A stretch of DNA of 64,000 bases from an uncultured Prevotellaceae bacterium (GTDB lineage: Bacteria > Bacteroidota > Bacteroidia > Bacteroidales > Bacteroidaceae): positions 45,585 to 109,584 of the forward strand of contig OMXX01000007.1 in the NCBI GenBank assembly GCA_900315105.1, in the 5' to 3' direction. The notes beneath the pieces are model-generated. The model made no database searches. It had not been told where the DNA came from and saw only the letters and a list, made by a program, of their open reading frames with translations. Position 1 is the first letter of the stretch. The number at the start of each line of letters is the position of its first letter. A program made the translations under genes and the position numbers. This document shows positions 35,138 to 60,858 of this stretch, in pieces.

Positions 35138-36088
35138 TTAACTCTTCGGTTTTCCTCGGAAACTATTACGGACGTTGCCCGACTCGCAATTCCGACAAAG
35201 CAGTTCCGTAGCTCTATGATGACGGAAACCTTCAATCATAGCCTTGGCACGTGGTGAGTCGAGAATCTCATCAAGCGACTGAGTAAAGAGATTTCCAAGC
35301 TTTATATCACCATTATGATCCATACAGCAAGGCACCAAACTTCCATCAGAAAGAACACCAATCTGCTTGTGGAGAGCCTTGCAGAATATCTCAGCCCCCC
35401 TCCTACTCCCCCGAGGGGGAGAGTTTTTAGTCACCTCTTTTTGTTCAAAAACATCATTTAAGGGATCTATACTATCTAAAAATCCCTCCCCCTCGGGGGA
35501 GTTGGTAGGGGGCAGGACTTTAGGCCACTCAAACTTCCTATCAAACTCGAGATACAGATTATCACATAGACGATAGCCGTCAGGACGCTCATGCCAAGGT
35601 TTTTGCACGTATTTCTCCAGAAGTTGCATAACCTGTTCGTTTTCACTCTCGCGTCCACCTTGATTCCAAAGCCTCAGCACAACACAAGTGCCTTGTTCAG
35701 CCGCAGGAATTGCGAATTGCATCACCTTATCTATATATTCTGCAAGTATGCCCTTGCCATTACTTTCGTGGGAATGTAATGATAGCTGCACCTTGTGGGG
35801 AAGAGAAGACAGAAGACGCATAGCCTTGACTGGCAAAGTGCCGTTGGAAGTAAGTACGGTATTGAAACCTTTTTCACGCGCCATACGGATGAAATCAGGC
35901 AGGAGAGGATGAAGCATAGGCTCGCCCATCAGATGGAAATACAGGAAGATAGCCCTACCACGAAGTCGATCTGTGACAAGGTCAAATTCCTGTGCAGTCA
36001 TACGTCTTTCAGCCCTGTTATGCTTAGGACAGAAATCGCAACTCAGGTTGCATACATTGGTTATCTCAATATAGCAGCGGTCAATCAA
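35138..36088 (-). CDS. Radical SAM / SPASM domain protein with in-frame palindrome insertion
   Basis: 316 residues. The radical SAM cluster motif is CNLSCDFC near 12-19; a MGEPMLHPLLPDFI substrate-edge segment and TSNGTLP follow. A SPASM-type C-terminus holds CKAL, VPCCMDHNGDIKLGN and LCRNCESGN, so a second Fe-S cluster is likely. The start reads TTG at 36088; no ATG lies before the cysteine motif. Between barrel and SPASM domain about 42 residues (VLPPTNSPEGEGFLDS...KNSPPRGSRRGAE) are encoded by an inserted GC-rich palindrome pair (35392-35516). The substrate is unknown; relatives modify peptides or sugars. Confidence 0.8.
   Translation of the reverse strand: MIDRCYIEITNVCNLSCDFCPKHNRAERRMTAQEFDLVTDRLRGRAIFLYFHLMGEPMLHPLLPDFIRMAREKGFNTVLTSNGTLPVKAMRLLSSLPHKVQLSLHSHESNGKGILAEYIDKVMQFAIPAAEQGTCVVLRLWNQGGRESENEQVMQLLEKYVQKPWHERPDGYRLCDNLYLEFDRKFEWPKVLPPTNSPEGEGFLDSIDPLNDVFEQKEVTKNSPPRGSRRGAEIFCKALHKQIGVLSDGSLVPCCMDHNGDIKLGNLFTQSLDEILDSPRAKAMIEGFRHHRATELLCRNCESGNVRNSFRGKPKS
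35392..35516. repeat. Composite GC-rich palindrome inside the radical SAM gene
   Basis: Two elements, CCCCCTCCTACTCCCCCGAG at the left and CTCCCCCTCGGGGGAGTTGG at the right, are inverted copies about 65 bases apart, giving an insertion of about 125 bases that keeps the reading frame. Confidence 0.8.
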
Positions 36089-36343
36089 TTCTATTTACTA
36101 TTTTAGTATTTACGATTTACTGTTTTTTATATCTACAATTTACTATTTGCCTACAAAGTTACAATATTTTTTCTTTTTTCCCGACATTTATTTGGTATAT
36201 TCACATACTTTTGCTATCTTTGCACTCATATAAGGTCTAAGGCCTAAAGACCAAGGAATAAGGTCTGAAAGCCTTCAACCTTAGTCCTCTGACCTTAGAC
36301 TTGAAACTATAGACCTTAGTCTTTTGACCTTAGACAAACAATT
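36089..36343. repeat. Word arrays TACTATTTACGATTTACT and AAGGTCTAAGG/GACCTTAGAC
   Basis: At 36094-36150 AT-rich words (TTTACTATTT, TTTACGATTT, TTTACTGTTT) precede the radical SAM start. At 36232-36343 the word AAGGTCTAAGG passes into GACCTTAGACTT and GACCTTAGTC units. A standard promoter (36191-36222) lies between them. Confidence 0.8.
36191..36222 (+). promoter_or_regulatory. Promoter of the signalling operon
   Basis: TTTG (36191-36194), 20 bases, TATCTTTG (36215-36222). The leader of about 130 bases contains the AAGGTCTAAGG word array, a potential hairpin in front of the first gene. Confidence 0.65.
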
Positions 36344-36362
36344 ATAATCTTATCCTATTTCT

Positions 36363-37523
36363 ATGATAAAAATTCTAAGCGTGGATGATGAGCTTGACCT
36401 GGAGCTCCTGCTAACCCAGTATTTCCGCAGAAAGATTCGCAAGGGTGAATATGAGTTTTACTTTGCGCACAACGGTGTAGAAGCCATGCAGATGCTTCTG
36501 CAACATCCAGATATAGATATAGTTCTCTCCGACATCAACATGCCGGAGATGGACGGACTCACGCTTCTCAAGAAAATCAAGGATCGCAACAACCCTGCCC
36601 TGAAGGTGGTTATGGTAAGTGCCTACGGCGAAATGAGCAACATACGTCAAGCCATGAACAATGGTGCCTTCGATTTTGCCACAAAGCCTATCGACCTTGA
36701 GGACTTGGAGCGCACCATAGAGAAGGCACGTGAAGAGATTGAGTTTGTAAAACAGTCGCAGAAAGAGCATGGACAGTTGGTGGATCTAAAGGCAGACCTC
36801 AGTCTTGCTGCCGAGGTACAGTCGGCTATTCTGCCTAACAAGTTCCCTCCTTTCCCCGATGTGGCTTCAGAAGTAGATATCCATGCCACGATAAAACCTG
36901 CAAAGGATGTGGGAGGCGACTTCTATGATTTTTTCCGCATAGACGATGACCATATAGGTTTCGTGATAGCTGACGTATCGGGCAAGGGTGTACCAGCCGC
37001 CTTGTTTATGACCATGAGCTATACGTTGCTTCGCTTCACGGGAACAAGGAGTCTGACACCCGTTACCACAGTATCAGAATCAAATGATATGCTGTCAAGG
37101 GAGAGTTTTGACTCAATGTTCGTAACCGTCTTCTATGGTGTGTATTGCATAAGCACAGGCGAGATGCGATATGTAAATGCAGGACATAATCCACCATATA
37201 TCATCAAAGCCAACGGCAATGTGGATGTACTGCCCCATTCCAATAATATATGCATGGGAGTTACAGAGGGATTCCCATATCAGGAGAGCACCCTGAAAAT
37301 GGAAAAGGGCGATATGCTCGTAACATTCACCGATGGTGTGACGGAGGCTTGTGACCTGAACAACAACCTATATGGAGAAGGACGGCTTGAATCCTTGCTT
37401 GCAACGCTGAGAGGCAATACCGCCCAAGAGGTCACCTCTGCTATCGACAATGCCGTTAACGCTCATGCCAATGGTGCAGATCAGAGTGACGACATCACGA
37501 TAATGGCGATAAAGAGAAAGTAA
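36363..37523 (+). CDS. Response regulator with PP2C/SpoIIE phosphatase output domain
   Basis: 386 residues. Receiver domain 1-120 with phospho-acceptor Asp57 (VLSDINMPEMDG) and conserved Lys in TKPIDLED. After a linker, a SpoIIE/RsbU-type serine phosphatase domain (about 160-386) carries VGGDFYDFF, IADVSGKGVPAAL, TDGVTEACD and QSDDITIMAI, all metal-binding residues included. It should dephosphorylate a serine/threonine target, likely a partner-switch antagonist, under control of phosphorylation at Asp57. No STAS antagonist is in this window. First gene of a tight operon with two kinase genes. Confidence 0.9.
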   Translation: MIKILSVDDELDLELLLTQYFRRKIRKGEYEFYFAHNGVEAMQMLLQHPDIDIVLSDINMPEMDGLTLLKKIKDRNNPALKVVMVSAYGEMSNIRQAMNNGAFDFATKPIDLEDLERTIEKAREEIEFVKQSQKEHGQLVDLKADLSLAAEVQSAILPNKFPPFPDVASEVDIHATIKPAKDVGGDFYDFFRIDDDHIGFVIADVSGKGVPAALFMTMSYTLLRFTGTRSLTPVTTVSESNDMLSRESFDSMFVTVFYGVYCISTGEMRYVNAGHNPPYIIKANGNVDVLPHSNNICMGVTEGFPYQESTLKMEKGDMLVTFTDGVTEACDLNNNLYGEGRLESLLATLRGNTAQEVTSAIDNAVNAHANGADQSDDITIMAIKRK

Positions 37524-37554
37524 AAAAAAGATCTCTCCCCCATAGGGATAATTT

Positions 37555-39192
37555 ATGAATAATTCTGCTAACACACGAAAGAGGATGCTATTGCTCTGGC
37601 GAAAGTACGGAGCTTTAGTTGGCGTCGCAGCAATCAGTTGCGGTGTAACCTACCTTGTGTGTGATCAGGCATACGAGGCAAAGACAGCCGAACTTCAGGA
37701 ACAGATATCCGACCTCCAGAAGAAAGAGCTTCAGGCAAAGGTGACACAGCGCGTAAGCGAGCAGATGGAGGACATAGCCTTTCAGCAGAAGGACATCTCA
37801 GACAAACAGCGTGAAGAGGCTGTGAGACAGTCGCGTATAGCTGATATGGAGCGCGGCAAGGCAGAGATAGAGAGAGGATTTGCACAACAGGCCCAGAAGA
37901 AAGCCATGCAGGCAGCAGAACAGGCTGACCAGATGCGTATCATGGCTGTGGATCAGAAGGAGCTTGCCACAAAGAATATGATGGAAGCGGAAAAGGCCCG
38001 TGCCAAGGCCGATACGCTGTTCTATCTCTCTATGGGCAATTCTCTTGCACAGTCTGCCCTCGCCAAGGGAAGTGTGGCAACGGATATTTCACGACTCCTT
38101 TCTTATGCCTCATGGCACTATACCAAGCAGTATGGCGGCCAAGAGAACTCCGATAACGTATATAAGGCTCTTCTCTATTCTTCCAATTCCACAGAGAAGA
38201 TGTACACGGGACTCAAAGGTAATGTGAGAAGCGTGGATATCATCAAGATAGACGGTGCACGCTGGGTTCTAGGCATAACTGACTATGGAGAAGTAATACT
38301 ATGCAACGATGCACGAGAGCGTTGGCAATTCAATATTGAGAATGCTCCTTTCCGAAGCATGGCTATGCTTTCCGATAACAAGATAGCAGCCATGACATCC
38401 GACGGTTTGGTCGTTGTCATGGAGTTCAGCGGTGCACGCAATCCCCGTATGAATGTGTTGGGCACGATAAGGATCGGACCTGGAGTATGGAAGGGTATCT
38501 GTACCATCGGAAAGAATTTGCTTGTAGCGATGAACGACAACTCCCTTGTATGGATAAATGCCCAACTGATGGCAATCAAGGATATCATAGACCTCAACCC
38601 AGGACTTCTCACTCTTGGTTATGAAGAAGAGAACGGTATCCTACACGTCTTCGGGGTTAACGGTCTGCACTACACGACATCTTCCACAAAATCGAGTCGG
38701 TATAAGCGCTCTGACCTCAAAGAGGTAAAGGATAACGTAACGGCATTCTTCCATGACAAGCAGAACGGCAGTAACCTGCTCGGAACGGAGTCGGGTACTA
38801 TATATGTCACAGACAAGAACGGACATGTGACAAGCACAATGATCGGTCATACAGGTGCCATTACTTCGATAAAGGCAGTCAACCGTTCCGTTGTCTCCAC
38901 TAGCTATGACCATACCATGCGTTTCTGGTCGTTTGCCACCGCGACATCAATTGCAGAGTCTATTGAGTTCCGCTTCGACTCATGGCCTCTGTCGTTTGTC
39001 GTTGACAACGACTCGCAGATGATATGGATAGGCAATGAGGCAGGAAACATGAACCGCTTCTGTACATCAGTAGCCAAGAATGCTATTTCCACACAGTCAT
39101 TGCTACGCCGTGAGTTCACACGGGATGAGTGGAACTACTATATCGGTGAATCCGTGCCTTACCGCACATTCATGAAAGGAGGTGGGAAATGA
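37555..39192 (+). CDS. Membrane-anchored coiled-coil and beta-propeller protein
   Basis: 545 residues. A membrane helix at about 15-35 (ALVGVAAISCGVTYLVC), a Gln/Glu/Ala-rich coiled coil (about 40-150), a helical stretch, then from about 215 a beta-propeller with WD40-like units (TSMIGHTGAITSIKAVNRSVVSTSYDHTMRFWSF). It overlaps the next gene by 4 bases (ATGA) and likely works as a scaffold between the phosphatase and the two kinases. Sidedness of the propeller is unclear. No enzymatic motif is visible. Confidence 0.72.
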   Translation: MNNSANTRKRMLLLWRKYGALVGVAAISCGVTYLVCDQAYEAKTAELQEQISDLQKKELQAKVTQRVSEQMEDIAFQQKDISDKQREEAVRQSRIADMERGKAEIERGFAQQAQKKAMQAAEQADQMRIMAVDQKELATKNMMEAEKARAKADTLFYLSMGNSLAQSALAKGSVATDISRLLSYASWHYTKQYGGQENSDNVYKALLYSSNSTEKMYTGLKGNVRSVDIIKIDGARWVLGITDYGEVILCNDARERWQFNIENAPFRSMAMLSDNKIAAMTSDGLVVVMEFSGARNPRMNVLGTIRIGPGVWKGICTIGKNLLVAMNDNSLVWINAQLMAIKDIIDLNPGLLTLGYEEENGILHVFGVNGLHYTTSSTKSSRYKRSDLKEVKDNVTAFFHDKQNGSNLLGTESGTIYVTDKNGHVTSTMIGHTGAITSIKAVNRSVVSTSYDHTMRFWSFATATSIAESIEFRFDSWPLSFVVDNDSQMIWIGNEAGNMNRFCTSVAKNAISTQSLLRREFTRDEWNYYIGESVPYRTFMKGGGK

Positions 39193-41990
39193 TAAAAGCC
39201 AAAAGTCTAAAGTCTAAAGTCAAAGGTCTTTTGCCTCTTGTCTTTTGTCTTTTGCCTCTTTCTGAGATAAAGGCAGACGGGAGAGGTGTGCCTTTCTTCC
39301 GCAATTTCTCATCAAAGGAATACATGGCGCACAATCGTAACTACGATATCACGTGCGATGACTATGGCACAGTATTCGTTGCCAATTTCGAGGGACTACT
39401 CTATTACGACGGTGCCACATGGAGAAAAATCCATACCCCGGGCATCAGTCGTGTGACGCGATTGGCACGAGGAAACAATGGACGTATATGGATAGGCGGA
39501 TATAACGTGTTCGGCTATCTCAAATCCGACAATCAGGGACGCATACAGATCCACGCAATTGTTTCCGACGCAGACAAGGGTGCACTCTCTGAAGTCGATG
39601 ACATCAAGATTGAGAAAGACAAGGTGTATGTGCATACCACCGCAGGCAAGACGTATGAGGTTGTGAATGAGAGTCTTCGATTTATAAAAGATGACAAAGA
39701 CCAAAACGAAAGCTCTAACCCCTCAACTCCAAACACTAATCTCTCATCTCCCGACTCGGTGAGCCTGTTGAAGATGCCGCTCGACATAAAGCTGCGCTAC
39801 AGCTACACATACGGCATTGACTTCGGTAACAGTCGCTATGCCTTTGCACCTCTTTCCGAGACCGACGGTCTTATATCCAATGCTATCAACCACATTGTCT
39901 CCAATCGCACAAATATGTTATGGGGCGCTACCGATAACGGTATCTTTGCCGTTGATGCGCTCTCTCCATACGGACAGATTGGGGAAAGAGAGGGACTGAA
40001 AGGCGAGGTAAACTGCATCTGTCAGCTTGCAGGAACATACTACATAGGCACGATGAAGGGACTGTACCGCCTTGATGGTAACAGAATACACTTGGTGGAA
40101 GACATCGACCTTGCCTGTTGGCAGCTTACACGCATCTCAGATGCAGAGATGCTTGCAGCCACATCACAAGGTCTGTACCTCATCACCCCAAGTACCATAC
40201 GACATATAACAGGCTACAACACCTTCTCTGTATGCCACGACAAAAAACAAGGCGGCTATGTCACAGGTGAAGTCGATGGAGTATATTACGTTTCCAAATA
40301 TGGACAAAAGACGATGGTTCTACCTTTGGAAAAGGTGACGAAGATACAGCATGCTAAAGGGAAGTTCACCGTGGAGAGTATCTTTGGCGAACTATGGGAA
40401 CTTTCATTCTCCGACAGCGATAGCGGAATAAAGGTTTCCGACAAGTGCATACGCCAGAATGCAGACGTAAAGGCACCGAAGCTGAGATATACAGATCCGT
40501 CGGGCACACTATGGCAAACCGACCCGGAAGGACGCAATCTTAGAGCCAGCGACAACCAACACTCAAAATCTGATTTGCCCTTATGGATGTACCCATTCAC
40601 AAAGCGTGCCCTCAACTGCCTCTACGCCTCCGAAGACGGAAAGATGTGGGTTGGTGGTGACTTCGGTGTAATAGTACTTGACACAAGGATGGTGAAAGAG
40701 ATCAAGCAGCAACCATGCGCAAGACCGTATATCCGTCAAGTGATAGCAATGGGCGACTCTGTGATGTGGGGTGGTTATTCGCCAAGAGACATGAAACCAT
40801 ACTCCGACGTGGAAGACATCATGCTACCGTCATCCTGCAATCAGCTAAATGTTACATTCTCCACTCCATACTCCTCCATTATCTGCCCTACCGAATACCG
40901 CTATCGCATCAACGGTGGAAGATGGAGTCTGTGGAGCGACCACAACGAAGTGGAGATCAATAACCTCGACTATGGAAGCAGCAGAATCGACATTCAGGCA
41001 CGCGACATGTTCGGACGAGTATCGGAAATCAGTACCCTACACTGGTCGGTAGCCACGCCTTTCTATCTGCAATGGTGGGCTTTCATTATATACCTACTCA
41101 TCCTCGTGGCAATAGTACAAAGGTTCTTACAGCATCGCACACGACGTCTGAAAGCCGAGAAGATAAAGCTTGAGACATTGGTGGCAGAGCGTACCTCTGA
41201 CCTGAAGCGAACACAGGATGACCTCGTGCGTATGGAACGTACCGCTGCGGTAGGTAAGCTCACGCAGGGACTCATCGACCGAATCCTGAACCCAATCAAC
41301 TACATCAACAACTTCTCAAAGCTCACTTCCGGTCTTGCGCAAGACCTCATGGAAGACATTGAAGATGAGAAAGATCATATGTCACAGGACAATTACGAGG
41401 ACTGTGCCGACATCATACAGATGATGAAGACCAACCTGAAGAAGATTGAGGATCACGGTATCAGTACCACACGAACCCTGCGCGCTATGGAGGCAATGCT
41501 CAACAGTCATATAGGCACTATGACAGAGCACGACCTCATTTCCCTCTGCCAACAGACGGTGAAAGTCATATCCGAATACCACAAGGCTGAAATAGCAGAG
41601 TACGGAATAAGCATAATATGCGATATGCCAAACCAGCAGTTGCCTGTCAATATCGATGCTGTATCAATAAAGAACGCCCTCATAGCATTGTTCAGCAACA
41701 GTATATACTCTGTCGTTAAGAAAGCAAAACTCAGCACACCTAACTATGTTCCAGAAATAGTGCTAAGCCTCCCGGAGGAAGGTATCGGAATCGTAATCCG
41801 TGACAACGGCATGGGCATCGGAGAAAACATCATCAGCAAAGTATTCGACCCGTTCTTCACCACCAAGCCTACAGGCGAGGCTGCCGGTGTAGGACTCTAT
41901 CTTGTACGTAATATAATAAACGATCATCATGGTAAAATCTCAGTAGAATCCCAACAGGATGAATACTGCCAATTCACAATAACACTATGA
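39189..41990 (+). CDS. Propeller-type sensor, histidine kinase-like, phospho-acceptor His missing
   Basis: 933 residues. Signal peptide, then two-component-regulator propeller repeats (about 35-510), a Y_Y_Y domain (about 545-610), membrane helix (FYLQWWAFIIYLLILVAIVQ, about 620-640), coiled coil, dimerisation helices and an ATPase domain with DNGMGIG and VFDPFFTTKPTGEAAGVGLYL. The expected GIAHEINNP of the phospho-acceptor helix is GLIDRILNP here, so His is Asp697 and the next Glu is Arg. ATP binding looks intact; self-phosphorylation at His does not. A signal-peptide stretch (KSKVKGLLPLVFCLLPL) is coded by a GTCTAAAGTC-type word array, and SSNPSTPNT (about residue 175) by another. Confidence 0.82.
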   Translation: MIKAKSLKSKVKGLLPLVFCLLPLSEIKADGRGVPFFRNFSSKEYMAHNRNYDITCDDYGTVFVANFEGLLYYDGATWRKIHTPGISRVTRLARGNNGRIWIGGYNVFGYLKSDNQGRIQIHAIVSDADKGALSEVDDIKIEKDKVYVHTTAGKTYEVVNESLRFIKDDKDQNESSNPSTPNTNLSSPDSVSLLKMPLDIKLRYSYTYGIDFGNSRYAFAPLSETDGLISNAINHIVSNRTNMLWGATDNGIFAVDALSPYGQIGEREGLKGEVNCICQLAGTYYIGTMKGLYRLDGNRIHLVEDIDLACWQLTRISDAEMLAATSQGLYLITPSTIRHITGYNTFSVCHDKKQGGYVTGEVDGVYYVSKYGQKTMVLPLEKVTKIQHAKGKFTVESIFGELWELSFSDSDSGIKVSDKCIRQNADVKAPKLRYTDPSGTLWQTDPEGRNLRASDNQHSKSDLPLWMYPFTKRALNCLYASEDGKMWVGGDFGVIVLDTRMVKEIKQQPCARPYIRQVIAMGDSVMWGGYSPRDMKPYSDVEDIMLPSSCNQLNVTFSTPYSSIICPTEYRYRINGGRWSLWSDHNEVEINNLDYGSSRIDIQARDMFGRVSEISTLHWSVATPFYLQWWAFIIYLLILVAIVQRFLQHRTRRLKAEKIKLETLVAERTSDLKRTQDDLVRMERTAAVGKLTQGLIDRILNPINYINNFSKLTSGLAQDLMEDIEDEKDHMSQDNYEDCADIIQMMKTNLKKIEDHGISTTRTLRAMEAMLNSHIGTMTEHDLISLCQQTVKVISEYHKAEIAEYGISIICDMPNQQLPVNIDAVSIKNALIALFSNSIYSVVKKAKLSTPNYVPEIVLSLPEEGIGIVIRDNGMGIGENIISKVFDPFFTTKPTGEAAGVGLYLVRNIINDHHGKISVESQQDEYCQFTITL
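39705..39752 (+). repeat. CTAACCCCTCAACTCCAAACAC word inside the sensor gene
   Basis: Encodes ESSNPSTPNTNLSS in the propeller. The same word at 44078-44113 encodes ESSNLSTLNTEPS in the receptor gene three genes further on. Confidence 0.7.
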
Positions 41991-42844: not shown

Positions 42845-42849
42845 TAAAA

Positions 42850-43017
42850 GACCCCCCCCTTACCCCTCCCATAAAAGGAGGGGAGTAGATAGTAATACTC
42901 ATTAATAATGAAAGATAAAAAACAATACATACAAACGAGTTTTCCTAAATCTCCACAGCGAGAAAAGGGTAACTACACCCCTCTCTTTATGGGAGGGGTA
43001 AGGGGGTGGGTCTTTTT
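42850..43017 (+). repeat. Inverted GC-rich elements spanning the receptor start
   Basis: ACCCCTCCCATAAAAGGAGG (42860s) and its reverse complement near 42975-43017 lie about 90 bases apart with the start codon at 42908 between them. The right element encodes NYTPLFMGGVRGWVF before the hydrophobic signal core. Confidence 0.8.
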
Positions 43018-47524: not shown

Positions 47525-47612
47525 CACATGATAAAGTCTAAGGTCAAAAGACTAAGGCCTGAGGTTATAAAGCCTTTGACCTTTACCTCCTTAGACCTTT
47601 ATCTTCACGATA
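47525..47612 (+). repeat. AAGTCTAAGGTCAAAAGAC word array
   Basis: AAGTCTAAGGTC, AAAAGACTAAGGCC and later CTTTGACCTTTACC and CTTAGACCTTTA, related to 36232-36343 and to 39205-39250. Confidence 0.7.
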
Positions 47613-48299
47613 ACAGGTTTCCTGATAAACGGATTATCAGGACTAAGACGGGAACACAGTGTGAATCTGAGACATTACCCGATGCTGTAAGCCTATACAA
47701 AACATACAGGCAATCAAAACGACCCTCTAAATCCCCCTGCTTAGGGGGACTTCCTTTCGCGAATCGGCTCTCTTCCTATGCAAGGGAGAGTGGGAAGAGG
47801 GTTCAAACACGTCACTGGATTATTATCTGGGAAGACGAGCCTGCATGAGGACGAGTCAGAAGACCTGCCTGTTATTTATGTCAAACTGATGTCTGCGGGA
47901 CTACGGACACACAAATTCTATTATTCTATGAACAGGTACGACAAAACGTATCACAGCTATCGTGAGCTTATGTGCCGTCTTCGCAATGAGTTCAACGAGG
48001 TCAATTCCCACATGAAGGTAGCTATGACGGGTAACTCAACAACCCAGATTCTGCAGTCTATTGACTCTACAATCAGGACAGCCGAACAGCAACGTAATCT
48101 TCCAAGTGCCGAACTCTATTCCATTACCATTGCTATGATGGACTATCGGAAGCGTATTGCCGGTCTTCCTTGCGACACGAGCCTTTCTTGGAAGAAATGC
48201 TTTTCTACTATCAGTCAGGCTTCAGAATCGCTCATGAGTATTACTGATGATCCATACGTAAACAAATCACATACGCTCGCAAGCAGTATGATAGGATAA
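47527..48299 (+). pseudogene. Hypothetical gene split by a palindrome insertion
   Basis: Two frames seem to belong to one gene. The first (47527-47848) starts in the AAGTCTAAGGTC word array and runs through SLDLYLHDNRFPDKRIIRTKTGTQ and DAVSLYKTYRQSK. A GC-rich palindromic element (47722-47810) then appears, after which sense resumes in another frame (47778-48299) as TGLLSGKTSLHEDE, RTHKFYYSMNRYDKTYHSYRELMCRLR and a helical end. The downstream ATG at 47889 could give a 136-residue protein. I do not recognise the family. The promoter and body quality favour a once-real gene. Confidence 0.45.
47722..47810 (+). repeat. GACCCTCTAAATCCCCC element
   Basis: Composite element with AATCCCCC/GGGGGACTT, core CGCGAATCGGCTC and a second hairpin; the best full copy is 63367-63453. 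Confidence 0.8.
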
Positions 48300-50400: not shown

Positions 50401-50474
50401 TCTCTCTTTCTTGATTTTTCACCCCAAGAACATGGGAATTCCTTGTAAGAAATTCCGCTGTTTTACCGCTTTTC

Positions 50475-50585
50475 CACCGTAGATGCTCCATCGATACTCC
50501 ATCGATACTCCATCGACGGTCCATCGTTTCGATGGAGGATCGATGGACTACTGATGGACAATCGATGGAGTATCCTCGGAGTTTT
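50475..50585 (+). repeat. Word array CTCCATCGATACTCC / GATGGACTACTGATGG
   Basis: Units of CTCCATCGATA pass through CATCGTTTCGATG and return as ATCGATGGAC and ATCGATGGAGT. Almost the reverse of 33786-33895. Rest of the gap 50401-50745 has no gene; TGATTTGAAAAACTTTTAG precedes the -7 element at 50730. Confidence 0.85.
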
Positions 50586-52344: not shown

Positions 52345-52459
52345 TAATGTATGATGGATCGTCGTAGTATTGTAGGTTTAACCGAATATATTATACCCAT
52401 AATTGCTTCGTAATCAGGTAAGGTATCAAAGACGTTTAAACTCAATAACTCTCTCTTAC

Positions 52460-52510
52460 CCACACCTCCATAAATTCTTCGTGAATTCCTTGGCGGTATG
52501 GGATTTCTAG
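52460..52510 (+). terminator. Terminator of RHS cassette 2
   Basis: CCCACACC ... GGTATGGG hairpin with loop text TAAATTCTTCGTGAATTCCTTGG, homologous to 50347-50400. Confidence 0.65.
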
Positions 52511-52511
52511 A

Positions 52512-52650
52512 CCCTCTAAATCCCCCTGCATAGGGGGACTTTTTTATCTTGAATATGCCTATTGCACGTTCGCAACAAGTCCTATGTAACTCCTATGCAA
52601 ATCCCATGTAACTCCCATTTCAAATAAGAGCAACATAAGAACAGCATAAG
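52512..52650 (+). repeat. GACCCTCTAAATCCCCC element and ACTCCTATG / AGAGCAACATAAG array
   Basis: 52512-52548 is a short copy of the GC palindrome; 52565-52650 runs CCTATGTAACTCC units into AAGAGCAACATAAG units. The gap 52345-52739 has no gene. Confidence 0.75.
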
Positions 52651-52739
52651 AGTTTCAGCTATGTCAGATACTTGCATTTTGGCTTATTCTCTGTCTGTTT
52701 TCACATTTTACTTGATTTGTTTGGAGGTTTCAGGGAAAA

Positions 52740-53498
52740 TCAAAGTTTTGGCAAAGCGACCCGTGAAAGAGAGTATCGTGCCTCTGGGTTTATTTCCTGA
52801 AGATGACGGAAGACATCTGCCATGGTCTTTCTATTTGTTTCTTCCTCGTATGGACAGACGGTTTTCTGCTTTTGAAAGCCAAGTTCTTCTGCTATCTCAC
52901 GGATATCATCTTCATGCACAAGACACATAGGACGGATGATTTGCAAAGGATAATGCTCTAATTGAAGTATAGGGGGCATGGTATGGGCAGAGCCTTCAAA
53001 AGTGATATTCATCAGATAGGTTATGATGATATCATCATTATGATGCCCAAGAGCTATCTTATTAAAACCGTTGGCTACGGCATATTCAAAGAGCGTCTTT
53101 CGGCGATTCCAAGCACATAGGAAACAGCGTGTCTTTCGTGGATCGGTACTCTCATCAAAACGGGAATGGAGAATATGCAATCTGATACCAAGCTCATCAC
53201 AAAAGTTCTGAAGATACGTGCGGTCTGTCTCGTATGGAATGTTATCCATAATAACATGGGCAGCCTCAACCGTTATCTTCGGTTTATAGATACGAGAACG
53301 CTGAGCCATCAGTCGGGCAAGCATTAGCGAATCCTTGCCACCAGAAAGCGCAATAAGGATGCGGTCACCATCTGAAAGGAGATGGTAAGAAACGCAGGCG
53401 CGGTTGAAGGAGCGCAAAAGCGGCCTCTCCCCCCGCCCTCCCCCGTAGGGAGGGAGCCGATTCGCACAAGAAGTTAACTCTTTCTCCTTATTAGACAT
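52740..53498 (-). CDS. ttcA: tRNA 2-thiocytidine synthetase TtcA-like
   Basis: 252 residues. The PP-loop SGGKDS lies at 52-57 (ILIALSGGKDSLMLARLM). The paired cysteines are in TRCFLCAWNRRK; GHHNDDIIITYLMN is the family's third block. TtcA thiolates C32 of certain tRNAs with a 4Fe-4S cluster. Short for TtcA but complete. Residues about 13-28 (NRLPPYGGGRGERPLL) come from an inserted GC palindrome between the start and the conserved domain, without loss of frame. End of a seven-gene minus-strand run. Confidence 0.85.
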   Translation of the reverse strand: MSNKEKELTSCANRLPPYGGGRGERPLLRSFNRACVSYHLLSDGDRILIALSGGKDSLMLARLMAQRSRIYKPKITVEAAHVIMDNIPYETDRTYLQNFCDELGIRLHILHSRFDESTDPRKTRCFLCAWNRRKTLFEYAVANGFNKIALGHHNDDIIITYLMNITFEGSAHTMPPILQLEHYPLQIIRPMCLVHEDDIREIAEELGFQKQKTVCPYEEETNRKTMADVFRHLQEINPEARYSLSRVALPKL

Positions 53499-53585
53499 TC
53501 AATTTCTTTTTAATTCAACCCTTCCTTGACTTCTCCCATCGACTTCCGGCTCCCTCCCTACGGGGGAGGGCGGGGGGAGAGGCCG
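53420..53585. repeat. Inverted GC-palindrome pair around the ttcA start
   Basis: GGCCTCTCCCCCCGCCCTCC is inside ttcA, and its reverse complement closes at about 53583. Loop of about 75 bases contains the start codon, as at 42850-43017. Confidence 0.8.
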
Positions 53586-53598
53586 TTCTTTTCTTTTT

Positions 53599-54255: not shown

Positions 54256-54269
54256 AAGCCTAACCAAGC

Positions 54270-54395
54270 CTTCCCAAAGGGAAGGATGTTTTATAGTATA
54301 AATCCCTTAAAGGAAGGGTTATTTAATTATTATTTGCTGTTTTTTTGATTTGAAGAATGTATCTACTCCCCCTTGAAGGGTTGAGGGGGGTGGGC
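54270..54395 (+). repeat. Short GC palindromes
   Basis: CCTTCCCAAAGGGAAGG, ATCCCTTAAAGGAAGGGTTA and CCCCCTTGAAGGGTTGAGGGG lie between the LuxR and DUF5686 genes; members of the same GC family. Confidence 0.6.
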
Positions 54396-56759
54396 CTAGA
54401 ATGTCATTTCAAACATAACCCTGAAGCCATCCTTATTGGCTGTGGGGAGGTCGAGATAGTTGAGTCTGCGTACATACTGAACGCGGAAGAACTTGAAGAT
54501 ATTATATATACCGACAGAGAATTCGGCATAAGGACGGTTAGGGTTCATAACCGTACAACCTTCAGGGAATTCCATCAGCAAAGCAGAATTCTGATTCTTC
54601 ACAAGAAATGGATTGTTCTTGTCGGATATTCCACCCCAGAGAGTCTTGAAGCCGACAACCTCACGCCACTTCAATTTCTTGAGCAGAGGCACACGGTTGA
54701 ATATCTTTCCTGCCAAATCCCACTCTATATCAGCCGAAGCATAGCGGTCGTTAAGAAACTCCATGTTATTCACAAGGTTGAAACATCCTTTCTGAACGAT
54801 ATAGGAGAGATTGGCAGCCGGCATCATCAACAGAGGATAAGGCGCCTGAGACCATTGCACGCCACCCTTGAGATTACAGTTCAACTTTCCCCATGAGTTC
54901 AGCCAGAAACGCTTGTAGATGCTTGCCTCCGTCACATTATAGTTATAGTCGCCACCGAGGATTCCCTTCATTCCGAGCGTATGCGACAACTTGAAAACAG
55001 GAGCATCGTTATTGTTCGGAATACGGTTCTGCTTCGTATTTATGAACGTACGGCCAGGGGCATATTCCACCTCAAAGCGCATCTCCGTGGTTCGCAAGGA
55101 TATTTCTTTGTCAGGCTCCGCGAGAGTACGGAAATGCAGGTTGCCAGCCCCCTCATTCTTTTCCACCTTGATATTGGCAAGCAAACGCAAGCCCCACTCT
55201 TCCTCATATTCGAACTCCAGTTTATGGCGATGATAGAACATCATCTTATCAACCTTCGCCCATTTGAATGCCGTGAACACGTTATCCTTATCGTTTACGA
55301 GGAACTTATCCGAAGGCGACATTACATCGTATGAGGAATGAAACATGATGGTTCTGCGAGGAAACTCCATCGGGATGTATTTCTTCGGATTGAACGAATA
55401 TGTCAGTTCTCCCTTATAGTAGTTTCGCTTTGTGTTGAAACCGCGAGCCACATATCCAGAGAGGAAGAGGTGCCGGTTGAGATTAGCCGTGGTGAGTCCC
55501 GACAGACGCACACGATAGCCGTCAATGAAGTTATGCGAGATAATGGTATTGACCGGTCCGATATCAAACTTTGAAGGCTTGCCATTAAAGCCTGTCTCCA
55601 CAAAGTTCTCTACAACCGGACGTATGAAGAACATTATCCAGTTGAAGCCCTTCATACTCTGGGCATCCTTCACGAACTTTCCCATATTCCTCTCCGAAGT
55701 GGTGAGGTCAACCTTACGGTTTTCCCTCCAGAACTGCTCATCCTGTATCTCGGCATTAGCATCCTTACGAAGTTCTCCGACACCAGAGAGGAGTTTATCG
55801 TCTATCGGCTCAAATGAATAGTTGCTTCGTGTCGAGGTCTTCACCATAAGTCCGTGAGCCATAGACTGATTCACGCGCAACGCCACTATGAGGTCGTTGA
55901 CGGTTAGTACCCAGTCGCCCGTTGACAGAAGCTCGAATTCCTGATTTATCTGCAATCCCTCCACGAAGTTGATTCCAGATGATTTAGGGATAGAGAGCGA
56001 CACCTTCCTTACATGAAGTGAAGAATCCTTGAGAATATACATATCTCCGTTGAAACCGAAGTCCTGCGGGTTGTTCGGAGTAAAGAACACATGATAGCAA
56101 GAATCACGTTCCACCTTCACGGTGTCCAATATGTAATAGCGATAGAAACCTATGGCATCATCAGCAATAGGCGATGTCATAGTACGGCGAAGAAGTCGTA
56201 TGCTGTTATCGTAGATATCCACCTCGCAGAACGCATCGGCAGACAAGGCGTTGAAGATATTACCTGTCTCGAATATCTGATTGATACCTTCCGAACGCTC
56301 ACCTATCACAAGGGTTCGCTGTTTCTCAGGATCCTTGCGATACATCACCTTCGTCACCTTCTCGTCAAGCATGAACGGGAGGATGAGCTGACCGCTCAAC
56401 GGACTATATTCCACCTGATTCCTCAGCCAAGGAGTACGGCCTATAAGACCAGAGTCAAGCATCTCACCAGTAACACCATTGAGCGATATCGTCATCTTCT
56501 CATAGTTCTGATACTGGTAGTATGGCTTGTTGGTGAGCTTATTCTGTTTCTTTGCCGCAATAACGCGCTTCATCAGCTCAACGGCAGGATTGTTCTTGCG
56601 AGAGTACCTTTTCTTCTTAGCCTTCACCTCCACCCCCTTAAGATTCACATCGGCAAACAGAGAGTCGCCTGTGCGCTTCTTAACGGTTCCTTCCATCTGC
56701 GCATTAGCCGACAGACAGAAGAGGAATAGCAGTAATATGGTATTTAAATATCTAAACAA
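54396..56759 (-). CDS. DUF5686 family outer-membrane protein
   Basis: 787 residues. The start is TTG at 56759 because a stop lies directly upstream and no ATG precedes the signal peptide (LNTILLLFLFCLSANAQ). N-terminal part (about 25-130) is a shortened carboxypeptidase-regulatory-like region with NPAVELMKRVIAAKKQNK, followed by the DUF5686 domain and a beta-barrel ending DGFRVMFEMTF. The function of the family is unknown; it is very common in Bacteroidetes and sits in the outer membrane. An AATTAACAATT word array abuts the start. Confidence 0.8.
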   Translation of the reverse strand: MFRYLNTILLLFLFCLSANAQMEGTVKKRTGDSLFADVNLKGVEVKAKKKRYSRKNNPAVELMKRVIAAKKQNKLTNKPYYQYQNYEKMTISLNGVTGEMLDSGLIGRTPWLRNQVEYSPLSGQLILPFMLDEKVTKVMYRKDPEKQRTLVIGERSEGINQIFETGNIFNALSADAFCEVDIYDNSIRLLRRTMTSPIADDAIGFYRYYILDTVKVERDSCYHVFFTPNNPQDFGFNGDMYILKDSSLHVRKVSLSIPKSSGINFVEGLQINQEFELLSTGDWVLTVNDLIVALRVNQSMAHGLMVKTSTRSNYSFEPIDDKLLSGVGELRKDANAEIQDEQFWRENRKVDLTTSERNMGKFVKDAQSMKGFNWIMFFIRPVVENFVETGFNGKPSKFDIGPVNTIISHNFIDGYRVRLSGLTTANLNRHLFLSGYVARGFNTKRNYYKGELTYSFNPKKYIPMEFPRRTIMFHSSYDVMSPSDKFLVNDKDNVFTAFKWAKVDKMMFYHRHKLEFEYEEEWGLRLLANIKVEKNEGAGNLHFRTLAEPDKEISLRTTEMRFEVEYAPGRTFINTKQNRIPNNNDAPVFKLSHTLGMKGILGGDYNYNVTEASIYKRFWLNSWGKLNCNLKGGVQWSQAPYPLLMMPAANLSYIVQKGCFNLVNNMEFLNDRYASADIEWDLAGKIFNRVPLLKKLKWREVVGFKTLWGGISDKNNPFLVKNQNSALLMEFPEGCTVMNPNRPYAEFSVGIYNIFKFFRVQYVRRLNYLDLPTANKDGFRVMFEMTF

Positions 56760-56800
56760 TTAACGATTAACAATTAACAATTAATAATTAACAATTAAAA
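56760..56800 (+). repeat. AACAATTAACAATTAATAATT word array
   Basis: Four degenerate copies of AACAATTA upstream of the DUF5686 gene, in direct contact with its TTG start. Confidence 0.75.
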
Positions 56801-56807
56801 CGAACCC

Positions 56808-57533
56808 CTAAACAGGCAATTCCAGTAAATCCGTAATCACGAAATCAGGAATCGTCTCATCAACGGGTTCTTTCTTCCATCCCTCGCCCTTGAACCAAGC
56901 GGTCTTGCAGCCGAGGCTCTTGGCAGGAATGATATCTTTCTGAATACTGTCTCCTACAACGAGTATGTCCGATTCATCCAGATGCCCTGGAAGTTGTTTC
57001 TTTCTTAAAGCCTCCACCCCAAGGGCATAGAGACGAGGATCTGGCTTACGTATCCCGACCTGTGCAGATTCTATCACATCGCAGAAGAAATCCCGAAGTT
57101 GCATCTCCTCAAGCACAGTCTCCACGTTTCCGTAGAAATTGCTCACAAGTGCCATTTGGATTCCCCTTTCTTGCAACTGTGAGAGAACCGAACGTGTATG
57201 TTCCATATTCCCTTGAAGTCCCGAATACAGATATTCCACAAGGGCATCATGCTTCTCTGCACGTTCATCACACTCAGGCAACCAAGCCCCGGAATCTCGA
57301 AGGTAATCAAACTGAAGGTCTATCTTCACCTTGAGAGTCGTGAGAAAGGTATCTGTCTGTCGGATTATCTCCTTACTTCCAAGCGTGCGCTCGCCATAGA
57401 CGTATGCCTCACGATATTGTGCCTCTGTCACGGGAATGGCAAGATGCTCATAGGCATGCCATATAACCATACCCCAATGCTGCCCGAATGTGTCGAGCGT
57501 GGCACCATAGTCGAAAAGTATCGCTTTTATCAT
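56808..57533 (-). CDS. HAD family phosphatase
   Basis: 241 residues. HAD motif I FDYGATLD at 7-14, motif II ALVSNFYGN, Lys in motif III IRKPDPRLY, and DILVVGDSIQKDI for motif IV; all four are intact. Helical cap inserted after motif I (C1 type). Most likely a small-molecule phosphatase, such as one acting on the phospho-headgroup made in this run. It overlaps the upstream CDP-alcohol transferase gene by 4 bases, a sign of coupling. Confidence 0.85.
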   Translation of the reverse strand: MIKAILFDYGATLDTFGQHWGMVIWHAYEHLAIPVTEAQYREAYVYGERTLGSKEIIRQTDTFLTTLKVKIDLQFDYLRDSGAWLPECDERAEKHDALVEYLYSGLQGNMEHTRSVLSQLQERGIQMALVSNFYGNVETVLEEMQLRDFFCDVIESAQVGIRKPDPRLYALGVEALRKKQLPGHLDESDILVVGDSIQKDIIPAKSLGCKTAWFKGEGWKKEPVDETIPDFVITDLLELPV

Positions 57534-58573
57534 CTTGCCAACTCCTTACACATATTCTCGTGAGTCCTTCTCATATAGGCACAGGCAGCTGCCATTACCG
57601 TTACCTCGAAGAGCGGATATATCCACGGATGATTTGTCAGGCATCCTATGAAGAGCATTATTGCGCGCCAGTTGTGGGTGAGGAAATTGGTGTATTTCAT
57701 CAAAGGGAAGCTCCTTCTTCTGAACTCATCCCTAAACTCCTGCGGCACCTTATCAATTCCGCCATATCGCTCGGTAAGTACGGCCTTCAGTTTCTGAAAC
57801 TCGGGCGTTCCCTTCTCCTGAGCACGACAATATTTTGCATAGTTGGCAAAGAAGAGTACTCCTACCCAGTTCTTTTCCGCACGATATCTGTCGGCTATTG
57901 CTTTCTGTGAAGCGTATGAGTCGAGTTCCGAACCCTCCTTGCCAAGAAGGAAGAACAGGTGGATATTGCGGTAATAGTCGGAATAGCGACATTGTATGGT
58001 ATGTGCCCAAAGACCTGCAAGGGCGCACAAAGCCCATATCCATAAGCCCCACTTCACTTCTGTCCCCGGAATATTCTCAGGCATAAGACGGAAACAGATT
58101 GCCACATACACGCAGAAGAACCAGATGTCTGAGGCAAAGCCGTCAAGCATTCTGCCCGTTATGGTCTTCTTGCCTGTCATACGAGCCAACTGCCCATCGG
58201 TAGAGTCGCAGAAATTAGCGAACATCAGGAACAGCACACCATAGATATTCCATTCCAAGGATGTATGGTAGAAACACCATCCCGCAGCCGCTCCGAGAAA
58301 GAACGACAGAACGGTTATGGCATTTGGATGCACACCCAGTTTCTTCCAGATAAGCGCGAAGAACAAGCCTATCGGACGAGTGAAATATATGTCTATATTC
58401 TCTTCCGTATCGTATGACTTATACGTGCTGTGAAGCAAATCCAAGAAAGACCCCACCCCAGCCCTCCCGAGGGAGGGAGAAGAAGAGTCACCTTTGCTTG
58501 AAGATTTTCTTTCCTCCAAGAATGGTTCTATATTCTCTTGATTGCTTATCTTATTTTCTTCTTGACTTATCAT
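57530..58573 (-). CDS. CDP-alcohol phosphatidyltransferase family enzyme
   Basis: 347 residues with about six membrane helices. The signature D-x2-D-G-x2-A-R-x9-G-x3-D-x3-D is seen as DSTDGQLAR (123-131) through GRMLDGFASD (Asp149). Such enzymes transfer a phospho-group from a CDP-linked compound to an alcohol at the inner membrane, for phospholipid or phosphodiester headgroups. Residues about 33-42 (PSLGRAGVGS) come from a GC palindrome (58446-58490). Neighbour genes for an NTP transferase and a phosphatase suggest a complete headgroup pathway. Confidence 0.88.
   Translation of the reverse strand: MISQEENKISNQENIEPFLEERKSSSKGDSSSPSLGRAGVGSFLDLLHSTYKSYDTEENIDIYFTRPIGLFFALIWKKLGVHPNAITVLSFFLGAAAGWCFYHTSLEWNIYGVLFLMFANFCDSTDGQLARMTGKKTITGRMLDGFASDIWFFCVYVAICFRLMPENIPGTEVKWGLWIWALCALAGLWAHTIQCRYSDYYRNIHLFFLLGKEGSELDSYASQKAIADRYRAEKNWVGVLFFANYAKYCRAQEKGTPEFQKLKAVLTERYGGIDKVPQEFRDEFRRRSFPLMKYTNFLTHNWRAIMLFIGCLTNHPWIYPLFEVTVMAAACAYMRRTHENMCKELAR
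58446..58490 (-). repeat. GC palindrome inside the CDP-alcohol transferase gene
   Basis: CCCCAGCCCTCCCGAGGGAGG, in frame. Confidence 0.7.
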
Positions 58574-58590
58574 ATTTTATTCACTAACCT

Positions 58591-58829
58591 AACGTCAGTT
58601 CGACGAATTCTTTGAATGGCAGCAAGCTGCCTTAACCACAGCGTGGAGCTACATGACTTGCGAAGCTTGATGAGCCTTGCGAATAATTACCATTAATACT
58701 CACGAATTTTCCACGAATTATTATTTCTCTATCCCGATTTTTTCGAATATTCGAATTATTCGGGATAAGAATTTACGATTAATTATTCGCAAGGCTCATC
58801 AAGCTAAAGCAAGTCGTCGAACTCACGTA
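58591..58829 (+). repeat. ACGTGAGTTCGACGA palindrome
   Basis: GACTTGCGAAGCTTGATGAGC (58655 on) with CGAATAATTA returns as TAATTATTCGCAAGGCTCAT to 58816, outer arms TTCGACGA and TCGTCGAA. Contains TTCGAATATTCGAA in the middle. The gap 58574-58883 has no gene. Confidence 0.8.
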
Positions 58830-58883
58830 ACCTATTTACCCCTTCCTTGGGGAAGTCCGATGTTGATAATATCGGAGTATGTG

Positions 58884-59774
58884 TCAGATGGGGAGGGTCG
58901 CTATTTTTCTTGCCGCCTCCTCCCTACAAGGCGAGAACGTTGGCCAGTCGTTGAAATCTATTATCACAAACGAGCCGTCAGCCTTTACTATAGCATCACC
59001 ACCATAGACGATAACGCCTATTGTAGTGGCAAGGCGGTCAACCGTCTTCTTCATCTCCTCTGCGGAGAACGGATAATGATGAGCCTTTCCGTTATGCTCC
59101 TCGCTACCGAACTTGCTGCGGCCTGAGTCCGTTGGATAGAAATGATAGAAGAAATCCGTATTGGCTACACCATAGAACTTCACCAGATCACCCACCACGT
59201 GTGCCTGTCGGCAAACCTCCGTTATGCCACGAGCAGCAAACCTCCGCATAGCTTCTGACACTTCCTCTTCCGAAGAGCAGAATACGGTATCTTCCGCAAC
59301 CTCTGCCGTTCCTATGCCTCTCTTTAGCCAGATGCCGTTATCTCCATTTTCTGGAGGAAGAGGAATCTCCAGTCTCCTCATTATATCGGTAAGAGCCTGT
59401 CTGTTACCGCATATCCTTATTCCTTCTGGCTCATTAATGATACGTGCCTTCGAGCGTTCTATTATCTCCAGAGCCTCATTGCTTCGAGCCATGCAGAATA
59501 TCACATCCGCCTCTGGCAAGGTTTTTAGCGTAAGGACTTCCTCTTCAGTCATCATCCTCACTTCATTACCCTTAGCCTCCATCTCGCGAACAACACTCTC
59601 AAGAATCAGCCTGTCATTCTCCACAGAGTTGGGAGAGAAACGGCGAGCGCGGAAGAGAAAGAGAAAAGGCCTCTCCCCCCGCCATACAGCCCCTTTCCTG
59701 CCCTTCGGGCACCCTTTCCCCGTAAGGGGCAAGGGGGAAGTTACATTTTTATCGCTATTAGCCATTCGACACAT
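58884..59774 (-). CDS. ATP-grasp-like enzyme, function unknown
   Basis: 296 residues. After an inserted N-terminal region the text reads RARRFSPNSVENDRLILESVVREM, which looks like the true start of the family; later ARIINEPEGIRICGNRQAL, IWLKRGIGTAEV, and a closing GGDAIVKADGSFVIIDFNDWPTFS resemble the ATP-grasp layout (ATP-binding glycine region, then D-x-N-D metal site). It probably ligates an acid to an amine or hydroxyl. Residues about 11-33 (SPLPLTGKGCPKGRKGAVWRG) come from a GC palindrome. It lies between the NTP transferase and CDP-alcohol transferase, so it might decorate the headgroup. Confidence 0.6.
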   Translation of the reverse strand: MCRMANSDKNVTSPLPLTGKGCPKGRKGAVWRGERPFLFLFRARRFSPNSVENDRLILESVVREMEAKGNEVRMMTEEEVLTLKTLPEADVIFCMARSNEALEIIERSKARIINEPEGIRICGNRQALTDIMRRLEIPLPPENGDNGIWLKRGIGTAEVAEDTVFCSSEEEVSEAMRRFAARGITEVCRQAHVVGDLVKFYGVANTDFFYHFYPTDSGRSKFGSEEHNGKAHHYPFSAEEMKKTVDRLATTIGVIVYGGDAIVKADGSFVIIDFNDWPTFSPCREEAARKIATLPI

Positions 59775-59925
59775 AAACTGTATTATTAAGCGCCCATGAT
59801 TAGAAATACTAACATCCCCCTTGCCCCTTTACGGGGAATGTCGAAGAGATCGACGGCTCGAAGAGGAAAGTCAAAGGGTGCCCGAAGGGCAGGAAAGGGG
59901 CTGTAGGGCGGGGGGAGAGGCCGCC
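59674..59925. repeat. Two long GC palindromes, inverted, around an intergenic gap
   Basis: GGCCTCTCCCCCCGCCATAC to GCAAGGGGGAAG (59671-59742) returns inverted at 59813-59923 as CCCCCTTGCCCCTTTACG to CGGGGGGAGAGGCC. The left one encodes the N-terminal part of the ATP-grasp protein. CGAAGAGATCGACGGCTCG inside the right one comes from another repeat family. Confidence 0.85.
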
Positions 59926-60689
59926 TATTCTTTTATGAACTTCTCCGCCTTCTCAATATCACCTGCATGGTCAATATCGAGAACCTTGGAGAAGGGGAAA
60001 GCCATAAGCTGAAGCCCATCCTCTATTAGTCCGCGTTGGAAATTACGCATTCGGCTCTTTCCCTCCGCCATACAGCGGTTGAGGGTGTCTATCGCCTTGG
60101 GTGTCAAACCATAGATGCCGGCAGAGATATATGGGCATTTCCTTTCTTTATCTTCATCAAGGAAATTCTCGATAAGCGGAAAATCCATTCGCCTTCCGGC
60201 CTCCCCCCTCGGGGGGACGGGAGAGGGGGCCACATACAGCGGCTTCTCATCATCCACATAGTCCGTTACGCCCATCATTCCGTCAGCCGAGCCATTGGCA
60301 AGCGAAGCCTTGAAAGCCTTGACGTATGCCGAGAACTCCTCCTCACGGAAGATAGTATCAACCGTGGTAAGTACGAAGGGAGAGTCCGAAAGGAACTTAC
60401 TCAACTCGTAGAAACTATGCATGGAGCTTGGTGTTGTCCTGACTATATGCCGAAGCGGAATCTTCTTACCATCAAATCCATCACGCTCAATCCTTGTGAG
60501 ATGCTCATCCACAAGCGGGGTGAGGTCGTTGCATATCACGATTATCTCATCTGCCTCATTATCAAGAAACACACGGATTAATCGGTCAACAAGACATTGT
60601 CCTCCCACCTTGACCAAAGGCTTTGGAGCAGAGATTCCTTCCTCAGCCAATCTGGAGCCTTCACCGGCTGCAATGATTGCGTATTTCAT
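59925..60689 (-). CDS. Nucleotidyltransferase (NTP transferase family)
   Basis: 254 residues from the ATG at 60689, chosen because a consensus promoter lies immediately before it. Start MKYAIIAAGEGSRLAEEGISAPKPLVKVGG carries the NTP-transferase G-x-G-x-R-L and the PKPL Lys motif; later FVLTTVDTIF is the metal site. Likely makes a CDP- or UDP-activated sugar or alcohol. Residues APSPVPPRGEAGRR (about 160-175) come from an in-frame GC palindrome (60205-60236). It opens a run ending in the CDP-alcohol transferase. Confidence 0.85.
   Translation of the reverse strand: MKYAIIAAGEGSRLAEEGISAPKPLVKVGGQCLVDRLIRVFLDNEADEIIVICNDLTPLVDEHLTRIERDGFDGKKIPLRHIVRTTPSSMHSFYELSKFLSDSPFVLTTVDTIFREEEFSAYVKAFKASLANGSADGMMGVTDYVDDEKPLYVAPSPVPPRGEAGRRMDFPLIENFLDEDKERKCPYISAGIYGLTPKAIDTLNRCMAEGKSRMRNFQRGLIEDGLQLMAFPFSKVLDIDHAGDIEKAEKFIKE
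60205..60236 (-). repeat. GC palindrome inside the NTP transferase gene
   Basis: CTCCCCCCTCGGGGGGACGG, in frame. Confidence 0.75.
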
Positions 60690-60698
60690 ATCCGAGTG

Positions 60699-60730
60699 CA
60701 AAATTACACACTCTTCCACACACAACCAAA
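60699..60730 (-). promoter_or_regulatory. Promoter of the headgroup operon, next to its start
   Basis: Minus strand: TTTG (60730-60727), 20 bases, TAATTTTG (60706-60699). The ATG at 60689 lies 10 bases further, so almost leaderless. Confidence 0.7.
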
Positions 60731-60858
60731 AAAATTTATAAAAAATAACATTTTGGCTTGATTCCGCAAACAATTAATTAACGATAGTTCTACGAAATAA
60801 AGGAAACTGATTTATTGTTAATTTTAACGTGAGTTCGATGAATTCGTCTACTTGTATA

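Follow-up and report, generated by a model that had tools for sequence, protein, structure and literature searches.

GC-rich palindromes recur along a 64,000-nucleotide stretch of DNA from an uncultured Prevotellaceae bacterium (contig OMXX01000007.1, positions 45,585 to 109,584; the whole stretch is called here the window), both in gaps between genes and inside protein genes. We consider it probable (about 0.86) that they represent a family of short hairpins, similar to repetitive extragenic palindromes (REPs), that has spread in one Prevotellaceae clade and is tolerated in genes, in a riboswitch and in gaps; its movement and the selection acting on it are inferred. The initial annotation of the window had already located such palindromes in the gaps and inside six genes, those of a radical SAM protein, a TonB-dependent receptor, TtcA, a CDP-alcohol transferase, an ATP-grasp protein and an NTP transferase, and they were found in all of them. 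Four of these genes share one strand and may form one operon.

A hairpin arm in high copy number

What recurs is a hairpin arm of around 45 nt, GGCCTCTCCCCCCGCCCTCCCCCGTAGGGAGGGAGCCGGAAGGCG and its reverse, with the arm end GGCGGGGGGAGAGGCC. Genome-wide counts were made in seven relatives treated as drafts (G001 to G007). Allowing up to one mismatch, the 16-nt arm end was found in 102, 71, 202, 139, 231 and 70 copies in G001 to G006, with no copy in G007 (Prevotella conceptionensis), and the reversed 16-nt pattern used as a control gave no match in any of the seven. The palindromes are thus above chance, because 70 to 231 arm ends per genome in six relatives stand against zero for the reversed pattern. 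Four occurrences lie within the window. Among 201 sampled genomes of the family of G003, the end was present at least once in 27, and the counts next to that of G003 (202) were 11, 9 and 6; low-copy relatives bear versions with other loops, so that a count of the 16-mer may fall short of the whole family.

The anatomy and gene context of the arm were studied in a sample of 133 arms. The consensus has two stem versions, which differ by a paired change, and 110 of the arms match one or the other with at most six mismatches (63 exactly). A loose pattern caught 90 arms that fall into 15 types. The same 37-mer is found, letter for letter, in unrelated genes, in gaps and in several frames. The arm ends in GGCC, and by eye GTAG occurs in the loop only. 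Neighbouring arms less than 300 nt apart are mostly inverted in one sense, with GGCC outward (44 of 50 pairs). The 44 inverted pairs span 121 to 281 nt and enclose trimmed spacers of 25 to 185 nt with a mean of 34% GC. These spacers are unrelated between loci, except for those of orthologues, a start segment common to a TtcA and an ATP-grasp gene (see below), nested or other palindromes and AT-rich tracts. Around two thirds of the sampled arms are in inverted pairs and about a third are single.

The initial annotation proposed one element with a recurring core, CGCGAATCGGCTC. This sequence has only three copies in the window at up to two mismatches (two of them exact), a number reached by 3 of 100 shuffles, and corresponds to one version of the inner edge of the arm and not to a shared core. 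A single element with a single core was too simple a description, as several related palindrome types and a nested second hairpin were found.

Arms inside conserved genes

Frames of at least 130 residues contain 71 of the 133 arms, of which 37 are internal, 31 near the start and 3 near the end of the frame; such frames hold 31 of the 45 single arms and 40 of the 88 paired ones. Pfam matches were obtained in 28 of the 29 arm-bearing frames tested, the one without a match being L061:5500-6096. In 19 of the 28 Pfam-supported frames at least one arm lies 35 or more residues from the frame start. The hosts include a UvrD helicase (3 arms), an RsmB/F methyltransferase (5 arms in one RsmF gene), a calcium ATPase (3 arms in G003 and 4 in G002), MurB, MetH, NAD-dependent DNA ligase, RadC and AcrB, and, with arms near the start only, TsaD, Hsp90 and a PP-loop protein that we take to be TilS-like.

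The 28 Pfam-supported frames carry 43 arms, 35 of them read in sense and 8 in antisense (binomial test against 3/5, p = 0.0045, shared descent being ignored). The sense copies are read as GSLPTGEGGGRG in 24 cases, as APSLRGRAGGEA in 10 and as RLPPYGGGRGERP in one; the last reading is also used by frames outside this set, such as the TtcA frame of the window. The arm is free of stop codons in every sense frame, and its commonest reading, GSLPTGEGGGRG, is a flexible Gly/Ser-rich linker, two features that would explain how the palindrome is tolerated within genes. Extra residues were apparent in comparison with solved homologues of MurB, RsmF and the calcium pump, and in RsmF the arm peptide precedes the segment LDLCAAPGGK. 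In MetH the net gain is of just a few residues, and therefore the arm took the place of host sequence there.

Filled, empty and re-filled sites

The calcium ATPase was compared in nine genomes. At its site C, the fixed flanks are separated by 66 nt in G001, G004 and G006, where the site is empty, by 120 nt in G003 and G005, where it is filled, and by 177 nt in G002, where it is filled with a nested hairpin. Site B lacks the arm in G001 and G004, and carries it in sense in G003, G005 and G006 and in antisense in G002. A like turnover was detected at three linkers of RsmF in ten genomes. Clean insertion was not seen at ATPase sites B and C of relatives, where by eye the palindrome took the place of around 9 to 21 nt of host sequence.

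If the peptides were old native loops, orthologues would be expected to contain the same residues. When the orthologues of the six window genes were compared, for each gene some relative either lacked the peptide or had other sequence in its place. Part of the comparison is with six records of metagenome-assembled genomes (MAGs) titled Prevotellaceae or Bacteroidales (L001 to L006), whose homologues of the window CDP-alcohol transferase are 87-100% identical to it, and with Prevotella conceptionensis (L007), whose protein is 57% identical. The letters RUG in the names of the relatives' records presumably stand for rumen.

The palindrome of the CDP-alcohol transferase is common to L001, L005 and L006, absent in L007 and replaced by a different one in L002, and in L003 and L004 other palindromes stand directly before a possible start. 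The TtcA arm is absent in L002; in L004 an arm is found, in an open frame, directly ahead of what is probably the start. The N-terminal arm of the ATP-grasp protein, compared in the relatives with L007 left out, is absent in L002, and another arm type is found there in L001 and L004. The radical SAM palindrome is absent in the G251 orthologue (L089), corresponds to another, non-palindromic linker in G248 and carries a nested hairpin in G003, and the signal-peptide palindrome of the receptor is present in G003 (L101) and absent in G228 (L102). The linker that joins DDEKPLY to FLD in the NTP transferase is short in two relatives, L004 and L007, whereas in L001, L002, L003, L005, L006 and the window it is occupied by assorted palindrome peptides. 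From the matches listed (120 homologues), 114 linkers were parsed, of which 47 hold a palindrome peptide. A structure model of this protein (mean pLDDT 88.8) places the linker between two strands, as a segment of lower confidence whose averages over ten residues are 79 and 69.

A palindrome within a riboswitch

The copy at 47721-47803, first assigned to a gap or short frame, is actually within a cobalamin riboswitch. The window riboswitch (RF00174) is 289 nt long and with 69.8 bits reaches the curated score of the covariance model, and the homologous aptamers of L001, L003 and L006 are 209 nt long, score 96.6-98.6 bits and have the site empty. A possible TCAAA target-site repeat was seen at the riboswitch site; inspection by eye of ATPase sites B and C showed no obvious one. 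The compound palindrome folds strongly in comparison with shuffled sequences (z = -3.83).

A nested second hairpin

A second hairpin, with the structure AAGTC-stem-loop-stem-GAGTATGT, was found by eye to lie mostly within the palindromes. It is present in 27, 56, 37, 29, 32 and 26 copies in G001 to G006, and no copy was found in five other genomes. In 24 distinct types chosen among the matches listed, 95.1% of the stem cells were paired and five of the six pairs had changed on both sides; none of 500 shuffles reached the covariation score. Nested hairpins inside arms again keep the reading frame.

A possible route of spread

Our proposal is that the arms would spread by copying, in the form of folded single-stranded DNA, the enzyme perhaps being a trans-acting transposase of the HUH/Y1 type. 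Insertion would be broad and could cost a few host bases, and selection would then purge the copies that break a frame. Those left in genes are situated in loops or linkers, at N-termini or within signal peptides. The uniformity of the hairpins and their compensatory changes speak for a folded single strand as the form that is recognised, which makes a trans-acting HUH enzyme our first guess for the mover, with roughly one chance in three of being right.

Several observations weigh against this interpretation. Matches to the Y1 family (PF01797) were found at nine places in G002 to G006, one of them below the family cut-off, and no such locus holds the arm patterns tried. G001 gave no Y1 match in spite of its 102 arms, and a crude scan for HUH motifs in low-copy relatives, made on 20 stretches surrounding the arm, returned only one spurious frame. 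Thus, no mover was found in the Y1 and HUH searches, other transposase families not having been searched for. Target duplication was not seen as a general feature of the sites. Covariation of the arm is weak, with only one of seven pairs covarying, that which distinguishes the two stem versions; 316 of 500 shuffles reach that count and a slid control equals the score. Its folding energy is also ordinary for its composition (z = -1.26 and -0.32 against shuffles).

With respect to the genes, frame and arm have opposite senses in 13 of the 71 cases; some of these may be shadow frames, which the threshold of 130 residues may let in. In 9 of the 28 Pfam-supported frames the arms lie only within 35 residues of the frame start, perhaps upstream of the true start. 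The in-frame tally excludes copies in disrupted genes, and the extra peptides are predicted from the reading frames. The genomes are without exception drafts and for the most part MAGs; the p-values are nominal, with shared descent ignored.

Eight flanks of Y1 genes were read, and all have other palindromes or inverted repeats. A separate repeat family, containing CGACACCTAAAAGGGCAGTCCG, is present in the window at 6848-7067 and 60854-61039 and also flanks Y1 genes in L008, L009, L010 and L015; therefore, a REP with a likely transposase is present in the clade beside the GC arm. In L011, L014, L013 and L012, further Y1 genes were each accompanied by distinct palindromes or inverted repeats (CCCTGAAAGGGC / CCCAGGGCGATGCCCTGGG; GTACTGGCTTCCAGCCAG; GTACACAAAAGGGACGGTTCC).

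Alternative explanations

The closest rival would be a true REPIN/RAYT system, that is, inverted REP doublets moved by a cognate REP-associated tyrosine transposase (RAYT) that was missed in the drafts. The inversion in one sense of 44 of the 50 adjacent pairs under 300 nt speaks in its favour, as do the compensatory changes in the hairpins and the slightly higher similarity of doublet arms compared with single ones (95.5%, n = 72, against 93.7%, n = 38, plain arms only; permutation p = 0.052). However, the spacers of 25 to 185 nt show for the most part no relation from one locus to another, the Y1 genes come with other repeats, and single arms occupy ATPase sites that are empty in relatives, so we hold this explanation for possible, with the odds somewhat against it. 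The unrelated spacers also rule out a miniature inverted-repeat transposable element with a shared core between terminal inverted repeats. A further-reaching version of our reading, in which the palindrome is adapted to life in genes, with coding DNA as its normal habitat, nested selfish layers in essential proteins and movement by a mechanism yet to be described, is put forward only tentatively, as a rather doubtful extension.

It is unlikely that the arms are kept for their usefulness, as terminators, mRNA-stabilising hairpins or insulators between genes, the gene copies being by-products. Their high conservation, the inverted pairs that in several cases span gene starts or junctions, and the T runs seen by eye after some copies would fit such a role, but this is difficult to conciliate with 31 of 45 single and 40 of 88 paired arms lying in frames of at least 130 residues, and with sites that are filled, empty or swapped among relatives, where a fixed function would not lead one to expect turnover. 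Old native loops, or expansion of low-complexity sequence by slippage, would agree with the variable and tolerant nature of the host linkers; nevertheless, the exact 37-mer in unrelated genes, gaps and several frames and the relatives that lack it at the same site make this explanation extremely improbable, and it was rejected. An assembly or binning artefact, conceivable as the sources are drafts and mostly MAGs, was likewise rejected as highly improbable, given that sites and copies are shared by the separately named MAG records L001 to L006 and that 47 of the 114 parsed NTP transferase linkers from environmental proteins, among the matches listed, carry a palindrome peptide.

Relation to known repeat families

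The REP-like hairpins favoured here were compared with known systems through partial texts of the papers cited in this section. Rickettsia palindromic elements (RPEs), to which the initial annotation had likened the palindromes, are described there as palindromes of 105-146 bp which keep the frame within unrelated genes, often conserved ones, and occur in gaps as well, with repeats also in RNA genes (PMC2229807). The palindromic repeats of Wolbachia, judged by the title of a reference, stand next to them. The parallel holds for the way of working, with in-frame insertion in unrelated conserved genes, gaps and an RNA element. It does not extend to membership, as unit size, clade and arrangement differ: here the arm is of about 45 nt, occurs singly or in inverted pairs (121-281 nt), is read in several frames and both orientations, contains a nested hairpin and belongs to a different phylum. 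This separation is made on description and not on sequence.

Intragenic GTAG/CGTC REPs are, in the part of the source considered, short hairpins in open reading frames of several phyla, with dimers and double insertions per gene, the CGTC repeats coming from Bacteroidetes (PMC3733652). The gene classes overlap with those hit here (UvrD/REP helicase, DNA ligase, pseudouridine synthase; same partial source); by contrast, neither GTAG nor CGTC stands as a tag at the ends of our arm, no cognate transposase was found, and up to five arms per gene and nesting are seen. REPINs are presented, in the sections considered, as inverted doublets tied to a RAYT (PMC3116915). Inverted doublets, conserved 16-mer ends, hairpin potential and compensatory changes are common to both (PMC3116915, as above), whereas here the spacers are largely unrelated and variable in length, no RAYT was found nearby and about a third of the arms are single. 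The GGGGWSAS motif given in part of PMC3733652 for the terminal inverted repeats associated with TIRYT transposases fits the GGGGAGAG of the arm, an eight-letter match that may be due to chance, and no TIRYT gene was found beside arms. The RU repeats of enterobacteria, according to the portion of PMC2759123 considered, are small, open-framed and present in annotated genes, including some for signal-peptide proteins; they differ in their units of 103-168 bp in other hosts, compared with around 45 nt here.

A literature search on in-frame palindromes in Prevotella and Bacteroidetes, covering top-ranked and mostly non-subscription papers, gave no report of the arm family. In-frame palindromes are thus known as such, and what is unusual here is their density, the nesting, the frame bias, the exchange of copies at fixed sites and the presence of one in a riboswitch. 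Conserved proteins of related species in this way provide a dense set of natural sites that are filled, empty or re-filled, which could be used to measure the tolerance of loops to insertion, the selection of selfish DNA for its peptide and the movement of hairpins. Caution is also advisable with annotated N-terminal peptides and linkers in such genomes, which may be recent mobile DNA.

Copies and other repeats in the window

The palindrome copies located in the window are listed in Table 1.

Table 1. Palindromes and hairpin arms in the window, by position.
Feature	Position	Strand	Reading or remark
Palindrome in radical SAM gene (35138-36088, -)	35394..35423	-	reads NSPPRGSRRG
Inverted partner in radical SAM gene	35486..35513	-	reads PPTNSPEGEG
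Palindrome directly upstream of the TonB-dependent receptor start	42851..42891	.	
Inverted partner in the signal-peptide coding part of the receptor	42973..43011	+	reads NYTPLFMGGVRGW
Compound palindrome with CGCGAATCGGCTC in cobalamin riboswitch (47598-47886)	47721..47803	+	
First part of compound palindrome (type of 47721-47803)	52509..52541	+	intergenic
GC arm in TtcA N-terminus	53416..53459	-	reads RLPPYGGGRGERP
Inverted partner arm, outside TtcA, between TtcA and LuxR-type gene	53547..53590	+	
Palindrome at 3' end of 787-aa gene (54396-56759, -)	54366..54396	.	
Palindrome in CDP-alcohol transferase N-terminus	58449..58482	-	reads SPSLGRAGVG
Palindrome with nested hairpin at ATP-grasp 3' end	58838..58899	-	supplies stop codon 58884-58886
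Longer arm in ATP-grasp N-terminus	59668..59743	-	reads SPLPLTGKGCPKGRKGAVWRGERP
Inverted partner arm between ATP-grasp and NTP transferase genes	59815..59922	+	
Palindrome in internal NTP transferase linker	60188..60231	-	reads APSPVPPRGEAGRR
Second full copy of compound palindrome	63366..63449	+	3' of 585-aa gene; terminator-like by eye

Palindromes also give new C-terminal tails to the NTP transferases of L003 and L005. The TtcA gene of L005 (spacer 15229-15411) and the window ATP-grasp gene (spacer 59668-59922) share an almost identical start segment, ATGGCTAATAGCGA..AAAA, which looks as though a start codon had passed by copying from gene to gene together with its arm. In a more distant homologue of the receptor (L111, from G240), another palindrome-like peptide, LLWRGLGR, appears twice in the signal-peptide region.

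Repeats of other kinds were also seen. One, of the CCTCTAACCCTTCAACTC type, lies at 39712-39740, 44088-44109 and 44358-44428 and reads in frame both in a sensor protein and, repeatedly, in the receptor, with three copies in tandem; at this tandem site the G003 orthologue differs and is shorter. The signal-peptide region of the sensor (39189-39270) consists largely of AAGTCTAAAGTC-like repeats, which by eye are similar to those of the nearby gap at 36225-36335. Finally, tandem 11-nt repeats of the CTCCATCGATA type are found at 33785-33893 and 50473-50581, in mutually inverted orientation.

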